A stretch of DNA of 64,000 nucleotides from Roseimaritima multifibrata (lineage in GTDB: Bacteria > Planctomycetota > Planctomycetia > Pirellulales > Pirellulaceae), in assembly GCF_007741495.1 (NCBI RefSeq), contig NZ_CP036262.1, forward strand, positions 3,286,001 to 3,350,000. The letters are read 5' to 3'. Shown here one piece after another: positions 39,607-52,337 of this stretch (position 1 is the first letter of the stretch; each line of letters begins with the position of its first letter). The translations under genes were made by a program, and so were the position numbers. The notes under the pieces were generated by a model. That model was given only the letters and a program-made list of their open reading frames with translations. It made no database searches and had not been told where the DNA came from.

Positions 39607-40695
39607 TTATTTGGCTTCGGTGGAGAGCGAGTCTTTCAGTTGTTGGAAAGAAGCTTTGTGAAGCGTTTCGTGTCCCCCGTCAAAAATTTTCAACGATCCG
39701 AACTTTGCCGTTTTCGAGAAAACCACTTGGCGATCCTCTAGCATTTCCGTATCGGTTTGGGCGGGAACGTTTAGCGATAGCAGATCGACTAATTCTTCCG
39801 GGGAAACCGCGTCCTCGGGCGAACCATAGTGTTCGACCAAACGGTTCCAGAAACGGATCGAATGCGAGATGGGAACGCTACCGGTTCGGCCATCTAACAG
39901 ACCCGCATAAATACGAATCTCCGATGGTGCTTCGGCCGGAAAATCCCAATGAATGGGGGAGCGTTTTTTGCATTCGGCGGTATTAAGCGATCCGGCTGTT
40001 TTGGTACCAGACGGGGAAGTACTTGCGATCACATCATCGGCATACTTAGACCCTCGGCGGCGGGATTCGTGATACCAGTCTTCGATGTCCGAAATCGGCA
40101 CCCATGCTTGGCAAGCTTGCAAATCGTGTTTGGAACGCAGAAAGAAACCGAGTGTTGCCAAACCGCCGCCCGAGCCTCCCACAACTAAAATGTTTTCGCG
40201 GTCCACGTTGCCGTGTTTCAGGGCGTAGTCAATCGCATCATCGATGTCCGCAAGGGCTTTGTCGCTCATGCAGGCGTCGAAACTGCGATTGGGACCGCGG
40301 AAGTTGGGATGGACGTAATTCCAGTCCGCAGCGATCGCCATTTCTTCAAACGGAGTTTTCTGGCGAAAATCACCCGACCAGCTATGCAGGGCAACGATCA
40401 GTGGCGCCGGCTTTGATTTGGTGGTTGCGTAGAATTTAGACGGTTGAACCGATTGATCCACCGTGGAAACGATCTCAACTTCCCGGGCCTTGGGAGGGGA
40501 AGGTTTGGGCGACGGACTCCCTTTCGCGTTGATCGCGTCTTTTTTGAGGGCGTCGGACGCGACCGATGGGGATTCGAATCCGAGCGACAGGCCAGCGGCC
40601 AGACCCAGGACTAACAACGGGAGGAATCCCGATCGCTTCGATGTTGCAAATTCTGTTAGACGGGCGTCGTGATCGGTGGGGCGGTTTCGTTGCAT
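39607..40695 (-). CDS. Secreted alpha/beta hydrolase (prolyl-oligopeptidase/esterase type)
   Basis: From ATG 40695 the protein is 362 residues. It has an N-terminal hydrophobic segment (LPLLVLGLAAGLSLGF) and a Lys/Pro-rich linker. The hydrolase fold shows LIVALHSWSGD as oxyanion region, the nucleophile elbow GGSGGG near residue 180, and a late His in FDGGHETLHK. ATG 40773 is possible but adds 26 unrelated residues. Either start overlaps the 3' end of the giant hybrid kinase gene (by 40 or 118 bases), so translation is probably coupled to it. A peptidase or esterase activity is likely; the substrate is unknown. If the kinase senses an ester signal, a linked secreted esterase would be notable, but this is speculation. 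Confidence 0.85.
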   Translation of the reverse strand: MQRNRPTDHDARLTEFATSKRSGFLPLLVLGLAAGLSLGFESPSVASDALKKDAINAKGSPSPKPSPPKAREVEIVSTVDQSVQPSKFYATTKSKPAPLIVALHSWSGDFRQKTPFEEMAIAADWNYVHPNFRGPNRSFDACMSDKALADIDDAIDYALKHGNVDRENILVVGGSGGGLATLGFFLRSKHDLQACQAWVPISDIEDWYHESRRRGSKYADDVIASTSPSGTKTAGSLNTAECKKRSPIHWDFPAEAPSEIRIYAGLLDGRTGSVPISHSIRFWNRLVEHYGSPEDAVSPEELVDLLSLNVPAQTDTEMLEDRQVVFSKTAKFGSLKIFDGGHETLHKASFQQLKDSLSTEAK

Positions 40696-43600
40696 AGTGC
40701 TTGGATCGTTTCGAAGAGCTTTTCGGGTTGAATCGGTTTCGAGATATACGCGTCCATCCCCGCTTCTTTGCAACTGGCCCAGATTTGATCATCGCTGTGA
40801 GCCGTCATTGCAACGATCGGGAATCGCCGCGCGCCTGTCGGTATGTCTCGCATCCGTATCATTCTAGTAGCTTCGATGCCGTCCATGCGAGGCATGTCGA
40901 CGTCCATTAAGCAGATGTCGAATTCTTCCTGGTCAGCGATTTCGACCGCTTCGACTCCATCTTTCGCAAGGACGGCGACGTAAGCCTGCATTTCGAGGAT
41001 CCCGGAAATGACCTCGCGATTGATTACTCCGTCCTCGGCGACCAAAATTCGAGGACTGCGAGTGCGTGAGGGAGGATCCGTCGACACCGGTTCGTTGAAC
41101 GTCTCCGTCGGTTCAGGCGATCGTTCTATTATCGTTTCGTTTTTAGGGGCAATTGCCGGAACCGGGGCGTCGTCGTCGGACACCTGGCGTCGAGGATATT
41201 GAAGCATCTCAGCCGCTGCGGCAAGGATTTCCGGACACATTGCAGGTGACCGAATCTCGGTAAGCCATGGGACGGCGGGAACCGACGCGGTCGACGTTCC
41301 CGAACGTATCCAGAGGGTCGGCGTTTTAGTTGTACTGCAGTGATTCCAAACTTGGTCCGGAATTTCACCACTGCAGATAATCAAATCCAATTCACTCTCC
41401 AACATCGTGTCGATGGTCGAGGGAGACGTATCCGCTGGATTTGGTGAACATGCCATCGTTTTCGCCTGAACCGGTTTCAACGCATTGGCGATGGCATGCT
41501 GTGATGCCGGCAGGGGATCGATGATCATGATCTGTGGAGGCGGAAAGATTGCGATCGGTTCAACCAGTCGGTCCTGGTTCACCGTTGGCATCACCAAGGT
41601 AACGGTGAACGTACTGCCGTTGCCGAATTCACTTTCGACATCGATCGTACCTTCCATTCCCTCTGCCAATTCGCGGCAGATTGCCAATCCCAGACCCGTT
41701 CCGCCATACCGCCGCGTCATACTGCTATCGGATTGGGAGAAAGATTCGAAGACCTTATCGATATGCTCATGCGCGATGCCAATTCCGCTGTCCTGGACAG
41801 TGAACTGAATCGTGCTACTGCGACTGCTTTCCTCAACCGTGCGAATCGCCAAACAGATGTGTCCGGTTTCCGTAAATTTGATCGCATTGCCGACCAGGTT
41901 CATCAGAATCTGACGAATGCGAGAGGGATCGCCGATGACCGTACGTGGGAGGAATGGATCGAGATCACAGACCAGTTCCAGATTCTTCTGCCAAGCGGAC
42001 GCCGCTAACAGGCGACAGACTTCCCCGGCGACCTGGGATAGGTCGGTTGGGATCTGTTCCAGTTCCATCTTGCCCGCTTCCAATTTGGAGAAGTCAAGCA
42101 GGTCGTTGATCAGTGTCAACAACGATTGGCCGCTCAGTTCCACTGAATTTAGGTAGCCAATCAAACGTGAATCCTCGGTCGCTTTCGAAGCTAGGCACGT
42201 CATTCCAAGAATACCGTTCAGCGGAGTTCGAATTTCATGGCTGATGGTCGCCAAGAATCGACTTTTGGCTTCGTTTGCGGTGTTCGCTTGAACGATGGCT
42301 CGCTTTAGGTTGTCCTCGGTAGCAAGTAATTGTTCGTTGCTGACCGTCAGTTGGCGAGCGCGATCTTCAGCGGCCTGAGTTCGTTCTAAGACCCGTTGTT
42401 CCAAGGTGTCGTTGATTTGCTTCAAGCGAAGGAAACCATCCGCGTTTTCTAATGCCGCACCAGCGATCGTTGTCACGAAATCTGCGATGCGCTGCTCGTC
42501 GCAACCGTAGAGGTCTTTCAAATCGTAGTGAGTTACCAAAATGATGGCGACAGGATCCCCATGGAATGCAATGGGAGCCGCGATGGCGCTTCCCGTCGTC
42601 TCATGGAGTGGTGACGGATCGGGAGCGGTGCAGACCGCCTGGTGGGTCGCGAGTGCTTGTTCGATCAAATGATTATATTTTGTGACCCGGGCCTGGGCTC
42701 CGGAATCATCGATGTCTTCGGATAGGATTTCGGTGGTAATCTGATCGCCACTGACCTGGATTTTGACGATGTCGACATGTTGTCCTCGAAGCAACCGCCG
42801 TGCGGCGTCTCGAGCCTCGGCGTAGACCAGATCGGCCGAAAGTGCCTGAGCGATACGTCGGCCCGACTTGAGGACGTTCGAAAATCGATCCGCAAGCGAT
42901 AAGTTTGCGGTCTGCGTTGCGGTTTGCGGCGACGGTTCTGTACTCGATGAATAGAGCGATCTTAGATGCTCCAGGCGTCCCGCCAATGTTTCCGGAAAAC
43001 CATTTTTGGAAGAGTCGCCGAAATGATATAGTTCATCGAAAGCTTCAAGCGTTTCCAGTTCTTCGCATGGCATCCCCATTCGCGAAGCGACCTTTTGGCT
43101 TTTAGCAAAACAGGCGTGTGCCGCTCGCGTTTTGCCTTGGATGGCATTTAGGATTCCAAGTTCGCGCAAAGCATGCGGAAGGTCACCGGGGAACTTGCGA
43201 GCCATTGCGACGGCTTTTCGAATCGCCTTGTTGGCAGCCTTGAAATTTTTCTTGTAGCGGCGACCATCGCGGCGATTCGTTGCTTCCAGCCGCAGCCGGT
43301 AAGCGGTTCCCAGCCAAACAAAGCAAGGGAAGATGTAGGTGTTTAAGCTCCCCGCGTTGTTGCAGTAATCGATCGCATTCCTGAGCGTTTTGATGGCGTC
43401 GTCGATCCGGTTGTGATGCAGCAGAACACGGGCGAAACCAAGTTGTGTCTGTGCGTGGCTTTGGGCGTCCGGACGGTAACGGGCCGCTTCTTCGGTGATT
43501 CGCTCTAGCGGGAGGGTCTCGGGCAAGGCTCGAGCCCAGACGTCCAGGATAATACCAGTCGACTGGCGGTCGCCGACATTTCGGGCGGATTCGTAGACTT

Positions 43601-46600
43601 GGATCGCGGTGGTTACCGCTTCGTCCAGACGACCGGTTCGGTAGAGAGCATTGGCCTTTTGGTATTTGGCCATGTTCATTTCCCACACGTCACCAGTTTG
43701 CCGTAGCAGTTCAACGGCGCGTGAGGAGTCGGTGATCGTCGCTTCGTAATCACCTTCGGCTAATTTGACAACGCCTTTATAGTCAAGGCTTTGCCCTTGG
43801 CCCCACATATCCTCCTTTTCTGTTCGGATCTCCAGCGAACGGTCCAGGTAATGGTTTGCTCGCGTAAACCACCGCACCAGACTCATCGCAGGGCCGTGCT
43901 CGCTATAGACAAGTGCCAAGGTTAACGAAGGCGGAAAACGCTCGGCGTCGTTCATTGATCGCAGGTGATTGCTTAGCGTCCACAATTTGTGGCGGCTGAA
44001 CCAATAGACGTGGGAGAGCCGGCTGAGGAGCTGCAAACGAAGTTGATCAACTTCTGAAAGTTCCTTGTTGCGCACAACCCAATGGGCGGGGAGAAGGCTA
44101 TGGCAAGTTTGCACAACCGTTTGCACAACCAGACTGCCAAGCATCGCTGCGAAGGTCTTGGGAACTTGAACCCCGATCGCCGTCAAAGCCAACTCATAGT
44201 GCGTTGCGGCATCTGCAAACCGACCACGCTTAAAAGCCACTTCGCCGATCTTTTGTTGAACCCTGGCCTGATCGTGTCGGTCATGGGCGATTTCGAGAGC
44301 CTTGAACAGGTATTCGGAAGCCTCCTCGTACTTGCCCGCAAGTAAACAAACATGCCCCAACCGTTCACAAACGATGAACTCCGCTAAAGGTGCGTAACGC
44401 TCGACCCATTTTAACGCGATGCGAAACTGGTCATACGCGACCGATAGCGAGTAACGCTGACGCGCAATGTTGGCGGCCTGCATCGCGGTTTCAAACGCCT
44501 TCAGACCCTTTCCGGCGGCATCATAATGATGGGCCAGATCAAAGTAGTTGGTCGGATCGTGTTTCAGGAGAAAACGGACGGCACCGAGGTGGATGTATTG
44601 TTGTTCATCGTCGCGCAGGTAGTGCTGCATCTGGTGATGAATTTGATTTGCAGCGAAACAGAACCAACCTGGGCGCGGATCACGCCACAGCAAACGACGA
44701 TTTAAGGCGTCGTTTGTCATGTTGATCGTATCGGCAAGACTCTGTTCGGAGATCGCGGCAAGCAGTTCGACGTTGAATTGCTCACCCAACACCGCGGCGA
44801 TTGCCAGCAAGCGGCGATGATCCGGCGTTAAGCCAACCACTTGTTCATGGAGAAGTTCTGCAAGGGAATCGTCGCTGCGCAATGCTTCGTGAAGGGGAGT
44901 TTGTGCAATCCAACCGGAATTCGAACTGGTGACAACCTTCTGACGGATCAATCGGTTCAGGACGGCGATTGCCATTGCAGGATCCCCATCGGCTACTCGG
45001 GTGATCGACTGAGTAATCGTCGGATCCATTTTCCCGGCAGAGGACTGCAGACATTTCTCGACCTCGGCCTCCGAAAGGGGAGCCAGCTGAATGCAGTTGG
45101 TTTCGGAATAGGGCCGCAGCGTGTAGGTAACGTCGGCCGTTACCGCGCAGTAGAACGGATTGTGCTGTTCTTCGGCGGCAAAATCCATAACCGCTCGGAT
45201 CACTGTCCGAGTGAAATCATCGGAGCTGTCCAGTTCATCGAAAAGAAGCGCGATTCCACCGGTTGCACCCGCGATCACTTCGAGGAGTGCGGTCAATGCA
45301 TTCGCGGCGCGTTGACTTCCATGGGCTTCAATTCCAATGGTCCATTCCGCTTCAGGCCAAAATGCCGATAGCTCCGGCAGCCATTCGCTGAGGATTGGAG
45401 CATGCAACTGTGTTTTGGCGGAAACCTTTTTAGCAAGTTCGGGGTCATTGAGGCAAAGGCTGGTGATTTTCTCAAGAACCGGTTCAAGCGACTGCAACGG
45501 TTTTAGTGTTGACGTTTTCGAAACACTACCGCGAAAGACGTTGAAGCCGCCTGCCTTTGCGTCCAGACTGACCTCATCGAGGAATAGTCGACGTTGATTG
45601 ACATCGACGCCAGTGATCACGGTGACGATCCCTTCGCCGTTCTGAGCCGTCTCAAGCCCGGTCCGCACCTGTTCAAGTTCTGCATCGAAACCGATCAACG
45701 GCGTCTCAGCCAACTCCTGGCGAACGTCTTGAGTACCGATCGCAAACGATCCAAAAACCGTGGGGTCGCGATGAAAGAGGAGGATCTGTTCCAGGTCATG
45801 CGTTAGTGCGGCACCGGATTCGTATCGGTTGCGGGGATCGCGTCGGAGCAGCCTCGCAACTAAATCATCCAATGCTGCGGGGACCCGAATGCCTAGCTCT
45901 CGCAGACGAGCCGGTTCGATGCACAGTTGCTTTTCAAAGTAGTCGCTTGCGTTTTCGGCTTCGATAAACGGACGCCCGGCAACCATCCCATACAACAAAG
46001 CTCCCAACGAATAGAAATCGGAAGCTGCCGTCAGCGGGCGCGAAATCAATCCGCTCGCCTCAGGCGATACAAATCCCAGTTCATCCAGAGAGACGTCATG
46101 GGAAAATTTCAGATCCCCTCCGCTGATCGGTCTTTCGCGGATTTCAATATTAAAATCAGTATCGAAAAAGACGGTTCCGCTACTCAGCCAACCGTGGATG
46201 CGAGATCGCTGGTGCCATGATTCCAGGCAACGGGAAAGCGAAATGGCAATTTGTAGGGCATGGTCAAGCTGAAAGCAGGTCTTGAACATCCGGCTGTTCA
46301 GGGATTCCCCGCTGGGGGCGTCAAGAATCCGCGACACCCGTCCGTCATTGTCCCAGAATCGACGTTGCTTCAGACTGCCCTGCGGCTGTTGTTCTGCGTT
46401 GTGACGCCACTCGTTGCGAATGTGGCGAAACGTATCCGCTGAAACGTCTCGCGATTCCAACCACTCGGCCCAGTAATGGACGCCCGAGGAGCGACTTTCG
46501 ACAAGAAGACTTTTGATCGGACCGAAGCTCTCATGATCCGAGTTCGACTGGCCCGAGTTCGATTGGCCCGAGTTCGACTGGCCCGAGTTCGATTGGCCCG

Positions 46601-46850
46601 AGTTCGATTGGCTTGGGCCCGCATGGTCCAAGCCAGCGTCGATCGAAACAGGTGCGCGCCCGGCCTTGGATTCATCCCGTGACACGTAGTCATGGAATTC
46701 AGTCAGGTTTACGAAGGCCGTTGTCATTTCAATGTCATTGTTGAGGCGCAATAGGGCAGCAACTCGTACAAAGGAATTACAAAACTTCATGACGCTCCAT
46801 CGGAAGTCCATTGCAACGTTGCAATCTTTTTTTCGATGGAGAGGTTTCAA
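40656..46850 (-). CDS. Giant hybrid: pseudokinase - degenerate NTPase - TPR - GAF - histidine kinase - receiver
   Basis: The 2064-residue protein follows the order of bacterial Ser/Thr-kinase/ATPase/GAF/histidine-kinase hybrids. After an (QSNSG)n stretch (about residues 80-105), a kinase-like domain spans about 110-365. Its catalytic loop reads HGWLSSGTVFFD near 217, without the Asp, while SPEASG and SDFYSLG are kept. An NTPase-type domain (about 385-750) has TGVDVNQRR where a Walker A GKS/T should be, but LLFDELD near 535. TPR-like helices cover about 750-1310 and a GAF domain about 1315-1473. A coiled coil leads to HisKA with SHEIRTP (His1538). HATPase motifs follow (NAIKF near 1650, DSGIGI, GTGLGLAI). 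A receiver-like segment without a clear phosphoacceptor (about 1775-1885) precedes a canonical receiver with Asp1983 (LMDVDMPRMDG). The true start may be ATG 46790 (GGAG upstream) or 46727. No membrane helix is evident. Confidence 0.9.
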   Translation of the reverse strand: MKPLHRKKDCNVAMDFRWSVMKFCNSFVRVAALLRLNNDIEMTTAFVNLTEFHDYVSRDESKAGRAPVSIDAGLDHAGPSQSNSGQSNSGQSNSGQSNSGQSNSDHESFGPIKSLLVESRSSGVHYWAEWLESRDVSADTFRHIRNEWRHNAEQQPQGSLKQRRFWDNDGRVSRILDAPSGESLNSRMFKTCFQLDHALQIAISLSRCLESWHQRSRIHGWLSSGTVFFDTDFNIEIRERPISGGDLKFSHDVSLDELGFVSPEASGLISRPLTAASDFYSLGALLYGMVAGRPFIEAENASDYFEKQLCIEPARLRELGIRVPAALDDLVARLLRRDPRNRYESGAALTHDLEQILLFHRDPTVFGSFAIGTQDVRQELAETPLIGFDAELEQVRTGLETAQNGEGIVTVITGVDVNQRRLFLDEVSLDAKAGGFNVFRGSVSKTSTLKPLQSLEPVLEKITSLCLNDPELAKKVSAKTQLHAPILSEWLPELSAFWPEAEWTIGIEAHGSQRAANALTALLEVIAGATGGIALLFDELDSSDDFTRTVIRAVMDFAAEEQHNPFYCAVTADVTYTLRPYSETNCIQLAPLSEAEVEKCLQSSAGKMDPTITQSITRVADGDPAMAIAVLNRLIRQKVVTSSNSGWIAQTPLHEALRSDDSLAELLHEQVVGLTPDHRRLLAIAAVLGEQFNVELLAAISEQSLADTINMTNDALNRRLLWRDPRPGWFCFAANQIHHQMQHYLRDDEQQYIHLGAVRFLLKHDPTNYFDLAHHYDAAGKGLKAFETAMQAANIARQRYSLSVAYDQFRIALKWVERYAPLAEFIVCERLGHVCLLAGKYEEASEYLFKALEIAHDRHDQARVQQKIGEVAFKRGRFADAATHYELALTAIGVQVPKTFAAMLGSLVVQTVVQTCHSLLPAHWVVRNKELSEVDQLRLQLLSRLSHVYWFSRHKLWTLSNHLRSMNDAERFPPSLTLALVYSEHGPAMSLVRWFTRANHYLDRSLEIRTEKEDMWGQGQSLDYKGVVKLAEGDYEATITDSSRAVELLRQTGDVWEMNMAKYQKANALYRTGRLDEAVTTAIQVYESARNVGDRQSTGIILDVWARALPETLPLERITEEAARYRPDAQSHAQTQLGFARVLLHHNRIDDAIKTLRNAIDYCNNAGSLNTYIFPCFVWLGTAYRLRLEATNRRDGRRYKKNFKAANKAIRKAVAMARKFPGDLPHALRELGILNAIQGKTRAAHACFAKSQKVASRMGMPCEELETLEAFDELYHFGDSSKNGFPETLAGRLEHLRSLYSSSTEPSPQTATQTANLSLADRFSNVLKSGRRIAQALSADLVYAEARDAARRLLRGQHVDIVKIQVSGDQITTEILSEDIDDSGAQARVTKYNHLIEQALATHQAVCTAPDPSPLHETTGSAIAAPIAFHGDPVAIILVTHYDLKDLYGCDEQRIADFVTTIAGAALENADGFLRLKQINDTLEQRVLERTQAAEDRARQLTVSNEQLLATEDNLKRAIVQANTANEAKSRFLATISHEIRTPLNGILGMTCLASKATEDSRLIGYLNSVELSGQSLLTLINDLLDFSKLEAGKMELEQIPTDLSQVAGEVCRLLAASAWQKNLELVCDLDPFLPRTVIGDPSRIRQILMNLVGNAIKFTETGHICLAIRTVEESSRSSTIQFTVQDSGIGIAHEHIDKVFESFSQSDSSMTRRYGGTGLGLAICRELAEGMEGTIDVESEFGNGSTFTVTLVMPTVNQDRLVEPIAIFPPPQIMIIDPLPASQHAIANALKPVQAKTMACSPNPADTSPSTIDTMLESELDLIICSGEIPDQVWNHCSTTKTPTLWIRSGTSTASVPAVPWLTEIRSPAMCPEILAAAAEMLQYPRRQVSDDDAPVPAIAPKNETIIERSPEPTETFNEPVSTDPPSRTRSPRILVAEDGVINREVISGILEMQAYVAVLAKDGVEAVEIADQEEFDICLMDVDMPRMDGIEATRMIRMRDIPTGARRFPIVAMTAHSDDQIWASCKEAGMDAYISKPIQPEKLFETIQALCNETAPPITTPV
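46539..46613 (-). repeat. In-frame 15-bp tandem repeat encoding (QSNSG)n
   Basis: About five units of CCGAGTTCGAYTGGC (as read on the plus strand) run in tandem near the 5' end of the hybrid kinase gene, encoding QSNSG units. The units differ only at one C/T position. Changes in unit number would keep frame. Confidence 0.85.
46811..46824. promoter_or_regulatory. 14-bp perfect palindrome near the hybrid kinase start
   Basis: TTGCAACGTTGCAA is a perfect inverted repeat 21 bases upstream of the alternative start ATG 46790, and inside the longest reading frame. A half-like CGTTGCAA recurs at 47089-47096, in the methyltransferase promoter region. It could be an operator, which would favour the downstream start. 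Confidence 0.35.
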
Positions 46851-47312
46851 TACAAGTTATATTGCGGCTGCCCGATCTAACCCTAGGTCTGCAAATTACC
46901 TCCCGGCAGATTTTCTGCGGAAACCCGTACGAAATATTGACATAGTTTGCCGGGGTTGTTGCCCCCGCGAGCGAGGGTGACATCGTCTGTCATGCCGCGG
47001 AATGCCTTTTTGGGCCCTGGAGCCTGACATTTGCCAGGAATTTGGCGTTTCGATGCGGATTCGCTCTGCTTGTCGGAATCGGCACGACCGTTGCAATTGA
47101 ACCAAATTAGCACGATTTCTCTTATTAAAGAAAGGAATTTTCGTGCCGCTGCTAGCAAATGTTTTTTAAGAGCGGGGGGTAGGTGTTGACATTTTTTTCA
47201 GCCTTGAAATATTGCAGCCGTCGTACTGACAACGGAGCGTCTCTGACATGATTGTTGGGCCCCTCCGATGTGTCACGAATCTTATCTGTAGACCACCGCC
47301 GGGGCTCGCCTA
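46851..47312. other. Divergent promoter region between hybrid kinase and methyltransferase genes
   Basis: The 462-bp region has no gene. It includes a sigma-54-like element (47081-47095) and a TTGACA at 47186-47191 whose -10 partner (TATTGC) is poor. Both point towards the methyltransferase. Confidence 0.6.
47081..47095 (+). promoter_or_regulatory. Sigma-54-type (-24/-12) promoter candidate for the methyltransferase gene
   Basis: GGCACGACCGTTGCA matches the -24/-12 consensus TGGCACG-N4-TTGC with only the first T replaced by C. The GG and GC dinucleotides have the required 12-bp offset. It would start transcription near 47106, giving a leader of about 205 bases before ATG 47313. An upstream enhancer-binding protein is not identified. 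Confidence 0.45.
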
Positions 47313-48365
47313 ATGAGAATTGCTTCAACGAACAATGGAAAACGAGTCGTTGGTTCGAGTCGTTTAAATACAGCGAACAGCAATAAGTCGACCGGAGAAA
47401 AAACTTCAGAGACGCAAGCTCTGGTACAGGGAGAGCAACGGCTGCTTACGGTTTTAGATAGCGTCCAAGCCGATTTTGAAATCCCTTCGGCCGATGCCAA
47501 CGAAATCGCGATGGCCGTCGACCGACTGTTTCATGAACTCCGCTCAATCCGTCAAAGCGTTAGCGTGCAGGAGTGGAAGGCTCTGATTCAAATCGGCAGA
47601 CAACACCCGGTTTGCAGTCTGGTGCACCAAGATCCGTTTACCGCTCGAGCCTTCAACAAGCCGCGTGGGTATGCCGGGGATGCCGTGATGATGGATTACA
47701 TCTATGGTCGTGAAGAGGATTGGGAACGCCCCGCGGCAACCCGTCTTGGAGAGGCGATCTTTCGCTATACGACCGGCGCACCCGCATCTGCAGGCGTTCG
47801 GGAAAGACGTTGTTACGTCGCCGAACTGTTGGATGGGATCGCCAAACGCCAAACCAATCAGGAAGTTCTGGCGGTTGCCGCTGGTCATTGCCGTGAAGCA
47901 AGTCTTTCGCTTGCCATACGACGTCAACAATTCGATCGCTTTGTTGCGATGGATGCGGACCAAGAAAGCTTAGAAGAAGTTCGTCGGTGTTACGGCAGAT
48001 TTGGGATCGACCCCGAGGTCGCAAACATCCGTCAGATGCTGTCAGGGAAAATCAAACTCGGTAAATTTGATGTGATCTATTCGACGGGGTTGTACGATTA
48101 TCTCGCCGAATCGACCGCGGCCCGGCTGACCGCCAACCTCTTCGAGTGTTTGAATCCCGGCGGTAAATTGGTGATCGCCAATTTCTTGCCCGAGATCCGC
48201 GACATCGGCTACATGGAAATGTTCATGGACTGGCATCTGATCTATCGGGATCGAACCGATATGCTTGGGTTAGCAAGCCAGATCCCAGTATCCGCAATCG
48301 GAGAGATTCGATTGGTAGCGGAACCCAACGATAATATCATCGTGATTGAAATTTCAAAACGATAG
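47313..48365 (+). CDS. SAM-dependent methyltransferase, PhcB-like (3-hydroxy fatty acid methyl ester synthase family)
   Basis: The 350-residue cytoplasmic protein has a helical N-terminal part and the segment DPFTARAFNKPRGYAGDAVM. That segment recalls proteins annotated as extracellular-factor (3-hydroxypalmitate methyl ester) biosynthesis enzymes. The Rossmann-type half follows: EVLAVAAGHCRE near residue 184 as motif I, MDADQESLEEV near 212, FDVIYSTGLYDYL near 252 and LNPGGKLVIANF near 284. In Ralstonia, PhcB makes a fatty-acid methyl ester quorum signal read by the PhcS/PhcR two-component proteins. Here the gene is divergent from the giant hybrid kinase, which makes a comparable role attractive. 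The PhcB assignment rests on motif memory and should be treated as tentative; the methyltransferase fold is secure. Confidence 0.78.
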   Translation: MRIASTNNGKRVVGSSRLNTANSNKSTGEKTSETQALVQGEQRLLTVLDSVQADFEIPSADANEIAMAVDRLFHELRSIRQSVSVQEWKALIQIGRQHPVCSLVHQDPFTARAFNKPRGYAGDAVMMDYIYGREEDWERPAATRLGEAIFRYTTGAPASAGVRERRCYVAELLDGIAKRQTNQEVLAVAAGHCREASLSLAIRRQQFDRFVAMDADQESLEEVRRCYGRFGIDPEVANIRQMLSGKIKLGKFDVIYSTGLYDYLAESTAARLTANLFECLNPGGKLVIANFLPEIRDIGYMEMFMDWHLIYRDRTDMLGLASQIPVSAIGEIRLVAEPNDNIIVIEISKR

Positions 48366-49039
48366 TTTGCCAGCAGATAGCATTGGGTGAGAATCATCAC
48401 AAGCCTTCTTAGCGGAACGGCGCAAGCCGTCCGGCAATCGGTTCTGAAAACACACGCATGGGCCGGAGGGCTCGCGCCCTGCCGCTAAGAAAGTGCGGAC
48501 AGTCTTCTTAGCGGAACGGCGCAAGCCGTCCGGCCATCGGTTCTGAAATTGCACGCATGGGCCGGAGGGCTCGCGCCCTGCCGCTAAGAAAGTGCGGACA
48601 GTCTTCTTAGCGGAACGGCGCAAGCCGTCCGGTCAATCGGTTCTGAAAACACACGCATGGGCCGGAGGGCTCGCGCCCTGCCGCTAAGAAAGTGCGGACA
48701 GTCTTCTTGGCGGAACGGCGCAAGCCGTCCGGCCATCGGTTCTGAAATTGTACGCATGGGCCGGAGGGCTCGCGCCCTGCCGCTAAGAAAGTGCGGACAG
48801 TCTTCTTAGCGGAACGGCGCGAGCCGTCCGGCCATCGGTTCTGAAATTGCACGCATGGGCCGGAGGGCTCGCGCCCTGCCGCTAAGATAGTGCGGACAGT
48901 CTTCTAAGCCGTCCGGCCGGGGCTGCTTAAGGTCTCAGCGTTTCCCAGCTGATTTAGCCAAGCCCAAAAAACATCCACGCACTAGCCGGTCTTCCTCTTC
49001 GTACGATCACGACCGTTCGCATGCTTCTCTAGCGAGTCA
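48366..49039. other. Intergenic region filled by a tandem hairpin-repeat array
   Basis: It lies between the convergent methyltransferase and FadL-family genes. Open frames here are repeat translations and not genes. About 480 of the 674 bases are the array described separately; the rest shows nothing recognised. Confidence 0.7.
48408..48918 (+). repeat. Tandem array of five 82-bp hairpin elements with 99-bp period
   Basis: Full units occupy 48408-48489, 48507-48588, 48606-48688, 48706-48787 and 48805-48886, each followed by a 17-bp spacer (AAAGTGCGGACAGTCTT-like). A truncated copy starts at 48901. Each unit begins CTTAGCGGAACGGCGC and ends GCGCCCTGCCGCTAAG. The two 28-bp ends are inverted repeats matching at 24 of 28 positions, around a ~26-bp loop. 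This is a REP/BIME- or MITE-like structure. Diverged solo copies occur at 39449-39482 and 52614-52660. Confidence 0.9.
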
Positions 49040-50338
49040 CTAGAACCGACGTTGTGCCCCTACGAAGATCATATGGGTTTGTGTCGTGATTTTTGCGTTC
49101 GAGAAATCACCACCTGCATAGACGCTTTGCCCGGTCAACACTTCGGGCGCGAATGCAAATTGGTAGGCTCCGTCCAGTTCCCATCCACGATGTTCCAGCC
49201 CGTATCCGATCGAAAAGTGGTGCTTTAATGTCGTCTGCAGGTAGGTCGTCGTTGTGTTTGCTGGGACAGGATTGTCTTGGTATCGATAACCACAACGGAA
49301 GGTTTGTGAGTCAGTAACATCCAGCTCGTAGCCGGTGCTCACGATGATCGCGTCCTTCCATTGCAGCGGAAAGACTTCGTGAATCGTTGGACCGACAACG
49401 GCACGGTGAACGGGGCTGGTTGGATTGGTAAAGGTGAGGTTTAGATTGTCGAACGCGCTTGACCAGTCTTCCCACTCAAGGTCGACACCAAACCGTTGAC
49501 GGGAATCCAATTTGTGTTGGATCCCGATTCCAACCGAACGTGCCCACGTCATTCCCAGTTTGATGTCGTAATAACTAAATCCTAATGGGCCAGCTAAAAC
49601 TCCCGCTTGTCCTTCGGATTCAAAGCGGTTTTCGCTCTGGTAGTTGATGCCGATGGTTGTCTTATCGGTTAGCTGGTACTGGGTACCAAGTGACCATGTG
49701 AAAGCGGTTCCGGTTGCCTGTAAATCCAGGTTGGTCGGAGTTCCTGTAAGCGGAGCGGAGTTTAGGAAGTAGGGGCCTTCCAGTTCCACGTGACTGATCG
49801 CAAGTCCGATCGTTCCACCGACGGTCCAGCGGTCCGTCAAGCGAACCGAGGCTCCTGGCAACAGTCTTGCCAGTGCACCAAACGATTTGTAGGTTTGCGG
49901 TCCGGGAAGAAACGCAGGTCCGTCAAGCTCGTAATCGGAGGCAAATCCAGCCGGTGTGAACGCACCGAAACCGACAACAATGTCTTCGTTCAGTCGCTTG
50001 CCCAGCATCAGGTAGCCGAGGCCTGTTGGATGATCGGCGGCATTGGTGCGACCATTATCGGAATCGCGGTAGGTCAGGTTGGTGAATAGGCCAGCTCCTC
50101 CGACGTCAATAAACGTATCACAGTTGTCGCAGTCGCCAATCAGCCCTTGGATTCCCGCAGCGTTATCCATCAAGAGGACTCCGTTGTCTTGGAATCCAAG
50201 ATTGACGCCACCTCGCCCTGCTTCTCGTGCTGAAAGTGCATTGCTGATCGTTCCCGCAGCGTTTAGCTGTCCATCGCTAACGCATGACAAAAGGGAGAAC
50301 ACGCACATCCATACGAACCAACGACCCTGTAATAACAT
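49040..50338 (-). CDS. FadL/OmpP1/TodX-family outer-membrane protein
   Basis: From ATG 50338 the protein is 432 residues with a signal peptide (MLLQGRWFVWMCVFSLLSC...). ATG 50383 would add 15 residues. The mature start (NALSAREAGRGGVNLGFQDN) followed by DNAAGIQG matches the plugged N-terminus of FadL-family barrels. The rest is alternating beta-strand sequence ending in Phe (VGAQRRF), typical of outer-membrane beta-barrels. An extra CDNC pair lies near the start of the barrel. The family moves long-chain fatty acids and other hydrophobic molecules across the outer membrane. Its position next to a fatty-acid-methyl-ester-type methyltransferase suggests a possible link, but this is inference. 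Confidence 0.88.
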   Translation of the reverse strand: MLLQGRWFVWMCVFSLLSCVSDGQLNAAGTISNALSAREAGRGGVNLGFQDNGVLLMDNAAGIQGLIGDCDNCDTFIDVGGAGLFTNLTYRDSDNGRTNAADHPTGLGYLMLGKRLNEDIVVGFGAFTPAGFASDYELDGPAFLPGPQTYKSFGALARLLPGASVRLTDRWTVGGTIGLAISHVELEGPYFLNSAPLTGTPTNLDLQATGTAFTWSLGTQYQLTDKTTIGINYQSENRFESEGQAGVLAGPLGFSYYDIKLGMTWARSVGIGIQHKLDSRQRFGVDLEWEDWSSAFDNLNLTFTNPTSPVHRAVVGPTIHEVFPLQWKDAIIVSTGYELDVTDSQTFRCGYRYQDNPVPANTTTTYLQTTLKHHFSIGYGLEHRGWELDGAYQFAFAPEVLTGQSVYAGGDFSNAKITTQTHMIFVGAQRRF

Positions 50339-50787
50339 TTCCCCGCCCGGTAGTTCTTGAGTTGATAAGAGCGGGGACTTCATCGATGCGTACGGAATGG
50401 ATCGATCGTTTCGTCAGAACCGGTACCGCAAGAAACTTTGGAATGCCTCCGCGGCATACCGATTTCGATACCTGATCCCGAATGGAAAACGTGACTCAAA
50501 GCCAAATTTTGATGAAGCGCCGAGGAGTGGCGACAGATTAGTAGCGGACGTTCAAGTGGGGCGACCCGCTTGGAGTAGTGATTCGAATAGTAAAGTCTCT
50601 TCGAATCCGTTTTGTCCGGGAACCTATTTGTGGATGATCCTCAAACCGCCTGATTGCCTAAAACGCCACTCGAGTGCAGTTGCAGGTCGGTGGCTGTCCT
50701 GTTGAATCGGATTCAGCAATTGTTCAGGTACTGCTGAATTCGTAAACTAGTGAAGGAGGCTGGTGCGGGGGGTGCGGCCTGAATCGA
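50339..50787. other. Gap between the FadL-family and HD-GYP genes
   Basis: No gene is seen in this stretch. It must contain the promoter for the FadL-family gene. No canonical promoter, repeat or terminator was recognised. Confidence 0.5.
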
Positions 50788-51891
50788 TTAGAGCGTCTGT
50801 AGTGAAGAAACAATTTCCAGATTGCGTTTGAATCGCGGCAAGAATTCAGCATCTTTACGTTCGGCCGATTCGTTGAAATCGGTTTTGATCTTTCGGAAGA
50901 AATCTTCCAAGCGTAGGAATGCCTTCACGATATCGGGATCAAAATGGGTGCCAGCGCCCTCTCGGATGATCTGCACTGCTTTTTCGTGAGAGAAGGCCTT
51001 TTTGTACACGCGTTCGCTCGTTAAGGCGTCATAGACGTCGGCCACGGCAACAATTCGTCCACATAGTGGAATCTGTTCGCCTGATAGTCCTCTAGGATAA
51101 CCCGTCCCGTCCCAGCGTTCGTGGTGGGTAAGAGCAATCTGGTAGGCCATTTTCAGAACGGTCGCTTCAGGATGAGCGTCGACGACACTTTGCAACGTGT
51201 CGGCTCCGATCTGCGAGTGCATCGACATGATTGCAAATTCATCGTCCGTTAGCTTTCCTGGTTTTAACAGGATGCGATCGGGGATCCCAACCTTGCCGAT
51301 ATCATGCAGTGGGCTGGATTCATAGATCGATTGGATGTAAATCCCGTCGATGACTTCTTTGTAATCTTCCCAGCTGGACAGTTCCCCGCAAAGGGCTCGA
51401 CAGAACTCACGGATCCGCTCCAGGTGGCTTCCGGTTTCATTGTCACGGCTGTCGGCAAGCTTTGCCAAAGCAAAAATCATTAACTCGCGACTTTCTTGCA
51501 GCAGCAACCGCTCGCCCGCTCGAATGCGCATTCTCAGTTCACTTGGGCTGAACGGTTTGGACATATAGTCGTCCGCACCCGCATCCAAGCCCTCGATAAC
51601 GCTTTCGGTGTCACATCGTCCAGTCAGCAGGATTAGGTAGGTGTAATCGCACAAACTCCGCTCTCGAATCTCGCGGCAGAGTTCGATTCCGTTCATGCGA
51701 GGCATTTCGATATCGGAAATGACAATGCGGAATTTCCCCGTCCGGACATGGTGAATCGCTTCCACGCCATCGTTGGCAATGGTTGTTGGATACCCATATT
51801 CCGTCAACGCATGTTGAAGCGTTTCCGCTGCGATCGGGTCGTCGTCGACGACGAGTACATGCGTGTTTTCAGTCGATAGCTTATCCTTCAT
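50788..51891 (-). CDS. Response regulator with HD-GYP domain (cyclic-di-GMP phosphodiesterase type)
   Basis: The 367-residue protein has an N-terminal receiver (VLVVDDDP, phosphoacceptor in VISDIEMPRMNG, Lys in SKPFSP) to about residue 125. A short helix leads to an HD-GYP domain with LHDIGKVGIPD and HHERWDGTGYPRGLSG. The motif is complete, so cyclic-di-GMP hydrolysis is expected (RpfG-like architecture). It overlaps the Hpt gene by 4 bases (ATGA), so the two are translated together and probably exchange phosphate. GGGGAAAAA precedes the ATG. The giant hybrid kinase at 40656-46850 is a candidate phosphodonor through the Hpt protein. Confidence 0.95.
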   Translation of the reverse strand: MKDKLSTENTHVLVVDDDPIAAETLQHALTEYGYPTTIANDGVEAIHHVRTGKFRIVISDIEMPRMNGIELCREIRERSLCDYTYLILLTGRCDTESVIEGLDAGADDYMSKPFSPSELRMRIRAGERLLLQESRELMIFALAKLADSRDNETGSHLERIREFCRALCGELSSWEDYKEVIDGIYIQSIYESSPLHDIGKVGIPDRILLKPGKLTDDEFAIMSMHSQIGADTLQSVVDAHPEATVLKMAYQIALTHHERWDGTGYPRGLSGEQIPLCGRIVAVADVYDALTSERVYKKAFSHEKAVQIIREGAGTHFDPDIVKAFLRLEDFFRKIKTDFNESAERKDAEFLPRFKRNLEIVSSLQTL

Positions 51892-52337
51892 GATTTTTCC
51901 CCGTGAGACTCTACAGTCGGCGGCGATTGCGGAAATTCGGCAGAGACATATTTCTCAATGTCACGGTGCAGGCTACGCAATTGATCGAGTAAATCGAGCT
52001 GTTGCGACGTTTGCGCCTGTGCTGCGTCCGATTCCAGCATTTCGGCAACCTTTGCGATTGGTTCCGATGCCATTGTTTGCGCCGTGCCCCGATGACGATG
52101 CGCAAGAGAACGAATGCTCTCGCGGTCTCCCAGTCGGATTGCGGATTCAAGTAGATCGCATTCTGATACGGAATTTTCGACAAATCGATTTAGCATTCTG
52201 CCCGCCATTGCGGCGCTGCCTAGCATTCGTGCAAGCAATTGCTCACGATCGATGACCGGGGACCCGGTTGGATTTGTTTGAATCATGAAATTCGGTTCGA
52301 TTAGAAATTTGCCCAGCTCCAGGAATCTGGAGCACAT
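51888..52337 (-). CDS. Histidine phosphotransfer (Hpt) domain protein
   Basis: The 149-residue protein (starting at ATG 52337; ATG 52286 is also possible) consists of a helical bundle with SLAHRHRGTAQTM near residues 96-108. This matches the Hpt signature AHxxKG with Arg in place of Lys; the His of AH is the expected phosphoryl site. It overlaps the HD-GYP response regulator by 4 bases. Its likely role is to relay phosphate between a hybrid kinase and that receiver. A GGTGAG sequence lies upstream of 52337. Confidence 0.82.
   Translation of the reverse strand: MCSRFLELGKFLIEPNFMIQTNPTGSPVIDREQLLARMLGSAAMAGRMLNRFVENSVSECDLLESAIRLGDRESIRSLAHRHRGTAQTMASEPIAKVAEMLESDAAQAQTSQQLDLLDQLRSLHRDIEKYVSAEFPQSPPTVESHGEKS

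Follow-up and report, generated by a model that had tools for sequence, protein, structure and literature searches.

Background

The PhcBSRQ quorum-sensing system of Ralstonia combines, in a single operon, a histidine kinase and receiver domains with the methyltransferase PhcB, which is reported to make a fatty-acid methyl ester; the published lengths are 464–468 aa for PhcB, 368–374 aa for PhcR and 336–337 aa for PhcQ (PMC8578825). FadL of Sinorhizobium meliloti is described as facilitating the sensing of long-chain acyl-homoserine lactones (AHLs), and is proposed to carry the signal over the outer membrane (PMC5977203). For planctomycetes, the account of the stieleriacines (PMC7293339) only speculates about cell-cell signalling. 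Their surface-bound, biofilm life invites such signalling, and here we analyse a locus in a 64,000-nt stretch (the window, at its full length) of the 7.2-Mb single-contig genome of Roseimaritima multifibrata, in which the genes for a methyltransferase and a giant hybrid histidine kinase are divergent and accompanied by genes for a FadL-type channel, a stand-alone histidine phosphotransfer (Hpt) protein and an HD-GYP response regulator. No description of this locus was found in a limited open-access literature search, and it looks like an apparently undescribed system of methyl-ester-type signal and histidine kinase.

The locus resembles PhcBSRQ in that a histidine kinase and receiver domains accompany a methyltransferase from the PhcB superfamily, with a methyl-ester signal proposed here as well; it differs in the clade and motif I of the methyltransferase, which lacks the N-terminal extension, in the giant hybrid kinase, in its Hpt and HD-GYP output, in the presence of FadL, and in its divergent genes rather than a single operon. 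It shares with the FadL-assisted AHL sensing of rhizobia the proposed passage of a long-chain signal, but neither an AHL synthase nor LuxR is present among the scanned genes, and FadL is physically linked to the sensor. As in BarA/ArcB-type phosphorelays, a HisKA-HATPase-REC kinase is followed by Hpt and a response regulator, whereas here Hpt has a gene of its own, a predicted cyclic di-GMP (c-di-GMP) phosphodiesterase forms the output, and the N-terminal half of the kinase is an array of kinase-like, AAA, TPR and GAF parts without a clear membrane anchor. Some bacterial kinases combine Ser/Thr kinase, AAA, TPR and GAF domains with a histidine kinase, and their domain order is like that of the window kinase, but the latter has eroded kinase-like and Walker A motifs and is tied to a methyltransferase and FadL. 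Finally, rhizobia carry a methyltransferase of the same subfamily (MT1, see below) beside a c-di-GMP enzyme, with GGDEF-EAL in place of HD-GYP and with neither a giant kinase nor a linked FadL. As the locus names a candidate signal-making enzyme, channel, sensor and output, the question of planctomycete signalling becomes testable; the three methyltransferase lineages found at one kinase are a natural experiment on the chemistry which that kinase needs, and the second, Phc-like operon of this genome allows an internal comparison.

Conservation of the kinase locus in the Pirellulaceae

All genes named in a sequence-only reading of the window are open reading frames (ORFs), as confirmed by ORF listing and translation (Table 1), and its inference that the methyltransferase, kinase, FadL, Hpt and HD-GYP genes belong together was borne out by a comparison of neighbourhoods in relatives, which revealed a recurring unit. 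At most loci with a methyltransferase relative, the near relatives including Rhodopirellula maiorica and Rubripirellula, kinase and HD-GYP genes adjoin, usually with Hpt and in some cases with FadL. An independent search with the TPR-GAF part of the kinase alone, without reference to the methyltransferase, gave matches in 58 of 149 family genomes; 57 full-length kinases were hand-picked by coverage (at least about 660 of 701 residues), and 56 of these were examined (G143 was omitted). Neighbours were counted within 5 kb of the kinase, the window members being counted by hand, with the Hpt gene 5.04 kb off. A PhcB-superfamily methyltransferase is present at 29 of the 56 loci and a gene of the LCM family joined to a hotdog region (LCM-hotdog) at another 12, which makes 41 in all and none with both, and the same intervals contain FadL at 23, HD-GYP at 29 and Hpt at 27 loci. 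Some fetched stretches or contigs end less than 5 kb from the kinase, so that absences are upper bounds, and the HMM and phmmer screens used queries from the same loci, which distant members may escape. By comparison, 78 control loci without giant kinase (not taxon-matched, 21 being Pirellulaceae loci) contained FadL once, HD-GYP once and LCM never, with the single FadL and HD-GYP genes both in L066, which also contains the truncated beginning of a giant kinase; GGDEF and EAL were found in 22 and 21 control loci respectively, nearly all of them rhizobial.

The 7.2-Mb genome itself contains one PF03349 gene, eight HD_5 genes over the cut-off, two PhcB-superfamily methyltransferases (E <= 0.001) and one kinase of this kind (E <= 1e-30), and by our own arithmetic one FadL gene is expected within ~5 kb of the kinase in ~0.2–0.3% of placements. 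Because of these single or few copies genome-wide and the recurrence in relatives, the set is more than chance. Accidental neighbourhood, or shared inheritance without joint function, would agree with the many family genomes that are without one or more members, but the kinase is associated with distant or unrelated methyltransferases, with several FadL lineages and in different gene orders; the counts make this explanation unlikely, and we give it next to no credence.

With regard to the methyltransferase, three lineages (MT1, MT3 and LCM-hotdog) fill one slot beside the kinase. MT1 and MT3 of the Pirellulaceae are both PhcB-superfamily members, and their union in one clade was rejected (approximately unbiased (AU) test, p = 0.0009, 87 rows), a result to which the weaknesses of the model apply as both branches are long. 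The third lineage belongs to a separate clade of 15 kinase rows, 12 of which have a divergent LCM-family methyltransferase (PF04072) with an N-terminal DUF4442, often YiiD_C, hotdog region (11/11 scanned of the 12), and this gene often adjoins FadL. The slot gene is mostly divergent from the kinase, with a convergent orientation in L058-L060 and a co-directional one in L042, L162 and L165. In the kinase tree the MT1-linked kinases do not form one group but require five changes, four of them forced by well-supported branches, and therefore partners and kinases are not simply co-descended. This linkage and the interchange of methyltransferases are the surprising and the solid part of the analysis.

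Table 1 Predicted features of the kinase locus, in window coordinates
Feature	Position	Strand	Basis and remarks
Esterase ORF	39607..40773	-	TTG start as listed; overlaps kinase end by 118 bp
Giant hybrid histidine kinase	40656..46850	-	TTG ORF, 2064 aa; Pfam HisKA, HATPase_c, Response_reg, TPR_12, sub-threshold Pkinase
Kinase: C-terminal receiver domain, residues 1935-2049	40704..41048	-	PF00072, 95 bits
Kinase: HisKA + HATPase_c transmitter, residues 1528-1753	41592..42269	-	Pfam and sequence; SHEIRTP intact
Kinase: GAF domain, residues 1310-1500, candidate ligand-binding site	42351..42923	-	AlphaFold2 pLDDT 84; Foldseek
Kinase: AAA-like region, residues ~380-800	44451..45713	-	AAA_16 in relatives L041 and L043, none in window
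Kinase: kinase-like (pseudokinase) domain, residues 139-352	45795..46436	-	PF00069, 30.7 bits (cut-off 31.7)
PhcB-superfamily class I S-adenosylmethionine (SAM) methyltransferase, MT1 subfamily, 350 aa	47313..48365	+	Pfam Methyltransf_25, AlphaFold2, Foldseek, tree
FadL/TodX outer-membrane channel, 447 aa	49040..50383	-	PF03349 (Toluene_X), E=8e-28
HD-GYP response regulator, 367 aa	50788..51891	-	PF00072 + PF13487 (HD_5)
Stand-alone Hpt phosphotransfer protein, 149 aa	51888..52337	-	PF01627

The methyltransferase and its relation to PhcB

The AlphaFold2 model of the window methyltransferase is confident (predicted local distance difference test (pLDDT) 86) and has a Rossmann-type methyltransferase fold with the acids of the SAM site and a helical N-terminal domain; G191, E195, D214 and D253 are conserved. 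In Foldseek the functionally uncharacterised Bordetella protein 3ocj ranks first (template modelling (TM) score 0.50), followed mainly by O- and C-methyltransferases of small molecules whose N-terminal part is helical. By its fold the enzyme is a class I SAM methyltransferase, and these neighbours suggest that its substrate is small.

The sequence-only reading had called this enzyme PhcB-like and noted its PRGYAGD segment. KPRGYAGD is indeed present, but GYxGD occurs in every subfamily of the PhcB superfamily. In a tree of 108 rows, 57 MT1 sequences including the window protein, 17 PhcB-type sequences and 15 MT3 sequences (from beside the same kinase) each form one clade with an SH-like approximate likelihood ratio test (SH-aLRT) value of 99. 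Excluded from this tree were matches of <60 bits or <200 aa (including L049, L070, L071 and L124, the frame of L124 holding a stop), repeats of loci already represented (L001-L031, L052-L055, L057, L076-L108, L140, L141) and L042, L050_10854, L139 and L118; for the AU tests 21 more long-branched or near-duplicate rows were dropped to leave 87, among the dropped ones L047 and L048, which carry a Pirellulaceae MT1 label without a kinase nearby. A single clade of Pirellulaceae MT1 and PhcB-type sequences was rejected (AU p 0.0016). The hallmark of MT1 is the motif I AxGHxRE, as opposed to GCGPAxE in the PhcB type, and His192 is found in 56/56 MT1 rows besides the window but in 0/17 PhcB-type rows. 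At 350 aa the window protein falls short of the 464–468 aa of PhcB and lacks its N-terminal extension, and the N-terminal 170 aa of a 479-aa paralogue in the same genome matched no MT1 row at E 1e-5. Twelve Burkholderiaceae methyltransferases from loci of phcBSR-type order are 35–41% identical to this paralogue over 459–471 aa, versus only 24–30% over 236–269 aa to the window protein.

The possibility that the window locus is a Ralstonia-like PhcBSRQ quorum-sensing system, with a PhcB making 3-hydroxy fatty acid methyl esters, can draw on the common superfamily, on shared GYxGD, DY and W-x-x-x-x-R positions and on the methyltransferase adjoining a histidine kinase. Set against these are the separate clade, the different motif I and the shorter N-terminus, as well as a gene order in which methyltransferase and kinase are divergent and no PhcR or PhcQ-like gene is found in the locus. 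Orthology to PhcB was rejected by tree, motif and gene order alike, so that this explanation is largely refuted as far as orthology is concerned, and overall we regard it as very improbable.

There is, in addition, a better candidate for a Phc system 0.2 Mb from the window gene. At ~3121.75–3127.1 kb of the same genome (G000:C1 ~3121754-3127105; L126:7755-13106), the 479-aa PhcB-type methyltransferase is followed by an 891-aa kinase and a 410-aa receiver protein. In the 891-aa protein a receiver is surrounded by a pair each of HisKA and HATPase domains, a layout by which the protein is a predicted PhcS-PhcR fusion. Most of the 12 Burkholderiaceae loci have the methyltransferase followed by a kinase of ~440–535 aa and a receiver-kinase of ~390–450 aa, and 5/12 only also have a PhcQ-like receiver protein of 323–326 aa; the published PhcB, PhcR and PhcQ sizes fit these genes roughly. 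Pfam was run on one of the Burkholderiaceae operons (L111), and the name Phc for all of these operons is a putative one, resting on layout and size. Similar Phc-like genes are present in the same-genus genomes L127 and L128. A PilZ domain suspected by eye in the 479-aa paralogue was dropped, as Pfam gave none.

Any methyltransferase match was found in 61/149 family genomes, and only the top matches are of the kind seen in the window; close relatives are confined to a minority of the family, and none was found on viral contigs. Outside the family, rhizobial MT1 proteins are ~35–42% identical to the window methyltransferase, and Rhizobium accounts for 127/146 plasmid records with a match, from which first four and then 12 loci, hand-chosen for diversity, were taken. 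The rhizobial MT1 gene adjoins a GGDEF-EAL gene in 20/21 loci with otherwise varied flanks, the exception (L068) beginning at a contig end. In these 20 loci (L072-L075, L129-L132, L142-L153) the pair is divergent, except for L132 where it is co-directional. A further 15 MT1 loci, with the partial or short L070, L071 and L139 left out, come from acidobacteria, betaproteobacteria, a calditrichian and other planctomycetes. A coupling of MT1 to c-di-GMP enzymes as a rule for the subfamily was considered and rejected, as only one of these 15 (L062) has such a match; the coupling is bound to lineage, with HD-GYP in Pirellulaceae and GGDEF-EAL in rhizobia. L140, which has no match to a c-di-GMP enzyme, has a hybrid kinase 4.3 kb away.

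Several single cases deserve mention. In L047 (G118; genome 90% complete and not among the giant-kinase matches) MT1 keeps its HD-GYP neighbour, but the GYAGD segment can no longer be recognised, as though the enzyme were decaying in the absence of the kinase, although this is one case. L042:9239-11443 is a 734-aa frame with tandem duplicated MT1 domains between two giant kinase genes. Further PhcB-superfamily methyltransferases lie 0.1–4.5 kb from a kinase of 568–595 aa (L200:3239-8127, L202, L205, L212, L213), the one scanned (L200) being FHA-GAF-HisKA-HATPase. The gap between the methyltransferase and FadL genes (48366-49039) is 674 bp in the window, where it holds no ORF of 100 aa, and at most ~50 bp in the seven nearest FadL-bearing relatives.

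Recruitment of FadL

The window FadL scores 97.4 bits against PF03349 (gathering cut-off 29.7) and is the sole PF03349 gene found in the genome. The 51 family genomes searched have 0 to 3 PF03349 matches each, some of them two pieces of one gene, and in 15/22 genomes with a kinase-linked FadL the latter is the only PF03349 gene by our own count. Linked FadL genes are located between the HD-GYP and methyltransferase genes, upstream of Hpt, or behind either the kinase or the LCM gene, and fall in several lineages, down to ~20% identity with that of the window. By these sequence comparisons FadL appears to have been recruited repeatedly, in several lineages and positions, which fits a predicted transport of a hydrophobic ligand.

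The giant kinase and its putative phosphorelay

The kinase has the domain order kinase-like/AAA/TPR/GAF/HisKA/HATPase/REC. Its TTG start is doubtful and the true start is probably Met42 at 46727, since the relatives L036 and L040 begin near the equivalent position (compared by eye). Near the N-terminus, an in-frame tandem repeat QSNSG is present in four copies plus a partial one (46539-46610, residues 81–104). The pseudokinase match covers profile positions 40–261 of the 263 of PF00069, leaving the start of the N-lobe unmatched, and the HRD Asp is gone, the position reading HGWL. Likewise, Walker A reads GVDVNQRR in the window versus, for example, GESGxGKS in others, its glycines and lysine being absent from the window kinase and those nearest to it and kept in most other kinases. 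With both motifs lost, the N-terminal half probably serves as a regulatory scaffold. No Pfam GAF match was obtained in the window kinase, and the GAF assignment comes from the model, of which the best Foldseek match in the PDB is the cAMP-binding GAF domain 5w10 (E 2e-7, TM 0.57). Hydropathy gave two hydrophobic stretches over threshold and no obvious membrane anchor, and 32 of the 57 giant kinases, a total in which the window kinase is counted, have none; the kinase is apparently soluble, and its signal would therefore probably act inside the cell. The best NCBIfam matches are BarA, TorS and LetS, all below cut-off.

The Hpt and HD-GYP genes overlap by 4 bp. The HD-GYP protein carries the signature motifs HDIGK and HHERWDGTGYP; nearly every HD-GYP row shows the HD and GYP motifs, with a strict pattern missing GYP in five whole genes, and in L044 the HD-GYP gene is divided between two frames. 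All 31 Hpt rows, that of the window included, retain the phospho-accepting His. Together with the His of HisKA and the two receivers, the residues for a putative His-Asp-His-Asp relay are thus present, and such a relay is the simplest reading, because one conserved locus combines a hybrid kinase that has no Hpt domain with a stand-alone Hpt and a receiver-HD-GYP protein; its direction and effect would be those set out below. The suggestion of the sequence-only reading that the locus ends in c-di-GMP turnover is supported at the PhcB-superfamily loci, 25/29 of which have HD-GYP, usually accompanied by a stand-alone Hpt, with the motifs and the Hpt His in place; at the LCM loci it is not supported.

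A possible lipid-signal circuit and its rivals

From this linkage and anatomy we infer a lipid-signal circuit, probably based on a carboxyl methyl ester and with c-di-GMP breakdown as its output here, to which we assign a probability of roughly 0.55. The methyltransferase would make or finish a hydrophobic carboxyl-bearing molecule, most likely a methyl-esterified acid resembling a fatty acid or an acyl amino acid, which FadL would pass across the outer membrane, probably inwards. The giant kinase may integrate this signal via its GAF, TPR and pseudokinase/AAA parts, and the phosphoryl group would then travel from the His of HisKA through the receiver within the kinase and the stand-alone Hpt to the receiver of the HD-GYP protein, where phosphorylation would switch c-di-GMP breakdown and hence surface or planktonic life. 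The main ground for this preference is the chemistry that the occupants of the slot would share: carboxyl methylation is common to LCM enzymes, and as this converges with the fatty-acid methyl ester of PhcB and with the thioesterase-like domain, a methylated lipid acid would be what they share. The type I polyketide synthases beside four further kinases and the near absence of FadL and LCM from the control loci also speak for the circuit. The kinase is the constant element, and the swaps in the slot suggest that the acyl or ester molecule which it reads differs between species. The planctomycete signal circuit of the sequence-only reading is thus retained as a recurring unit whose occurrences are best united by a small molecule of lipid type, and abandoned with regard to PhcB orthology and the role of the esterase. 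A wider version, in which a Pirellulaceae family of cell-cell signalling systems has a kinase that swaps its signal-making enzyme (PhcB-superfamily, LCM-thioesterase-like or perhaps polyketide synthase), recruits FadL and in part of the family relays to c-di-GMP breakdown, is put forward tentatively, at slightly less than even odds.

Several observations weigh against the lipid-signal circuit. The best-known activity of LCM is the methylation of protein C-terminal carboxyl groups, which would fit a different mechanism, and in 5/11 LCM-hotdog proteins the DUF4442 match is below the Pfam cut-off. The fold matches of the window methyltransferase are modest, with TM scores of <= 0.50 by query length among the first 50. 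FadL is absent from 33/56 kinase loci, and at least 26 of those genomes have a FadL over the cut-off elsewhere. Hpt and HD-GYP are found at 0/12 LCM loci, so a c-di-GMP output is not general and output differs between branches, and 14/15 MT1 loci outside Pirellulaceae and rhizobia have no GGDEF, EAL or HD-GYP match. Finally, 15/56 kinase loci have neither methyltransferase: four of these lie next to type I polyketide synthases with a terminal thioesterase (two in the same-genus genome G028 and one each in G060 and G101), three keep Hpt and HD-GYP, in G062 the contig starts inside the kinase, and the remaining seven have no such partner, though G140 has FadL and G137 an HD-GYP gene 3.8 kb off.

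There are two main rivals. In the first, the kinase regulates rather than senses a lipid-modifying or specialised-metabolite pathway, in which a membrane lipid or metabolite would be made by the methyltransferase, the LCM-hotdog protein or the polyketide synthase; the cue would be unrelated, and FadL would serve the uptake of lipids or hydrocarbons. The polyketide synthases beside four family kinase loci and the three loci that keep Hpt and HD-GYP without a recognised methyltransferase agree with this, as does the uptake of monoaromatic hydrocarbons described for FadL channels (PMC7728783), but the window locus has a single modifying enzyme and no pathway, and the linked response regulator has HD-GYP and, by Pfam, no DNA-binding domain. 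We consider this rival unlikely, yet a serious one. The kinases beside polyketide synthases (L172, L174, L175 and L169) are another branch of the giant-kinase family, and the synthases have the order KS-AT-DH-ER-KR-ACP-TE, of which only the C-terminal part was covered in L169.

In the second rival, the methyltransferase acts in a CheR-like manner on carboxylates of the kinase or a partner in the relay and so sets its sensitivity, with FadL only supplying an external lipid cue. Besides the known activity of LCM, the divergent gene pair, which suggests co-regulation, and two weak matches to CheR (of the A1 profile in the PDB, E 0.02, and of P0002 in Pfam, E 0.036) speak for it. The better PDB matches of the A1 profile are, however, phosphoethanolamine and juvenile hormone acid methyltransferases, the fold matches after 3ocj are mostly small-molecule enzymes, the LCM proteins also contain a thioesterase-like hotdog region, and the superfamily includes PhcB, reported as a maker of fatty-acid methyl esters (PMC8578825). 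No CheB-like partner turned up among the scanned genes, in which no dedicated search for one was made. On balance protein methylation seems to us improbable, if only slightly more so than pathway regulation, and the lipid-signal circuit is preferred to both.

Other observations at the locus

The esterase gene does overlap the kinase gene by 118 bp as listed, but the proposal that its product degrades an ester signal found no support in the relatives, at whose kinase loci no esterase relative was detected (BLAST over 55 bits or phmmer E 1e-5), and the esterase was set aside as a partner. Its matches to Peptidase_S9 and to a PHA-depolymerase model are weak. Just past the locus, a gene for the formaldehyde-activating enzyme Fae (PF08714, 53756-54319) adjoins an EamA transporter gene.

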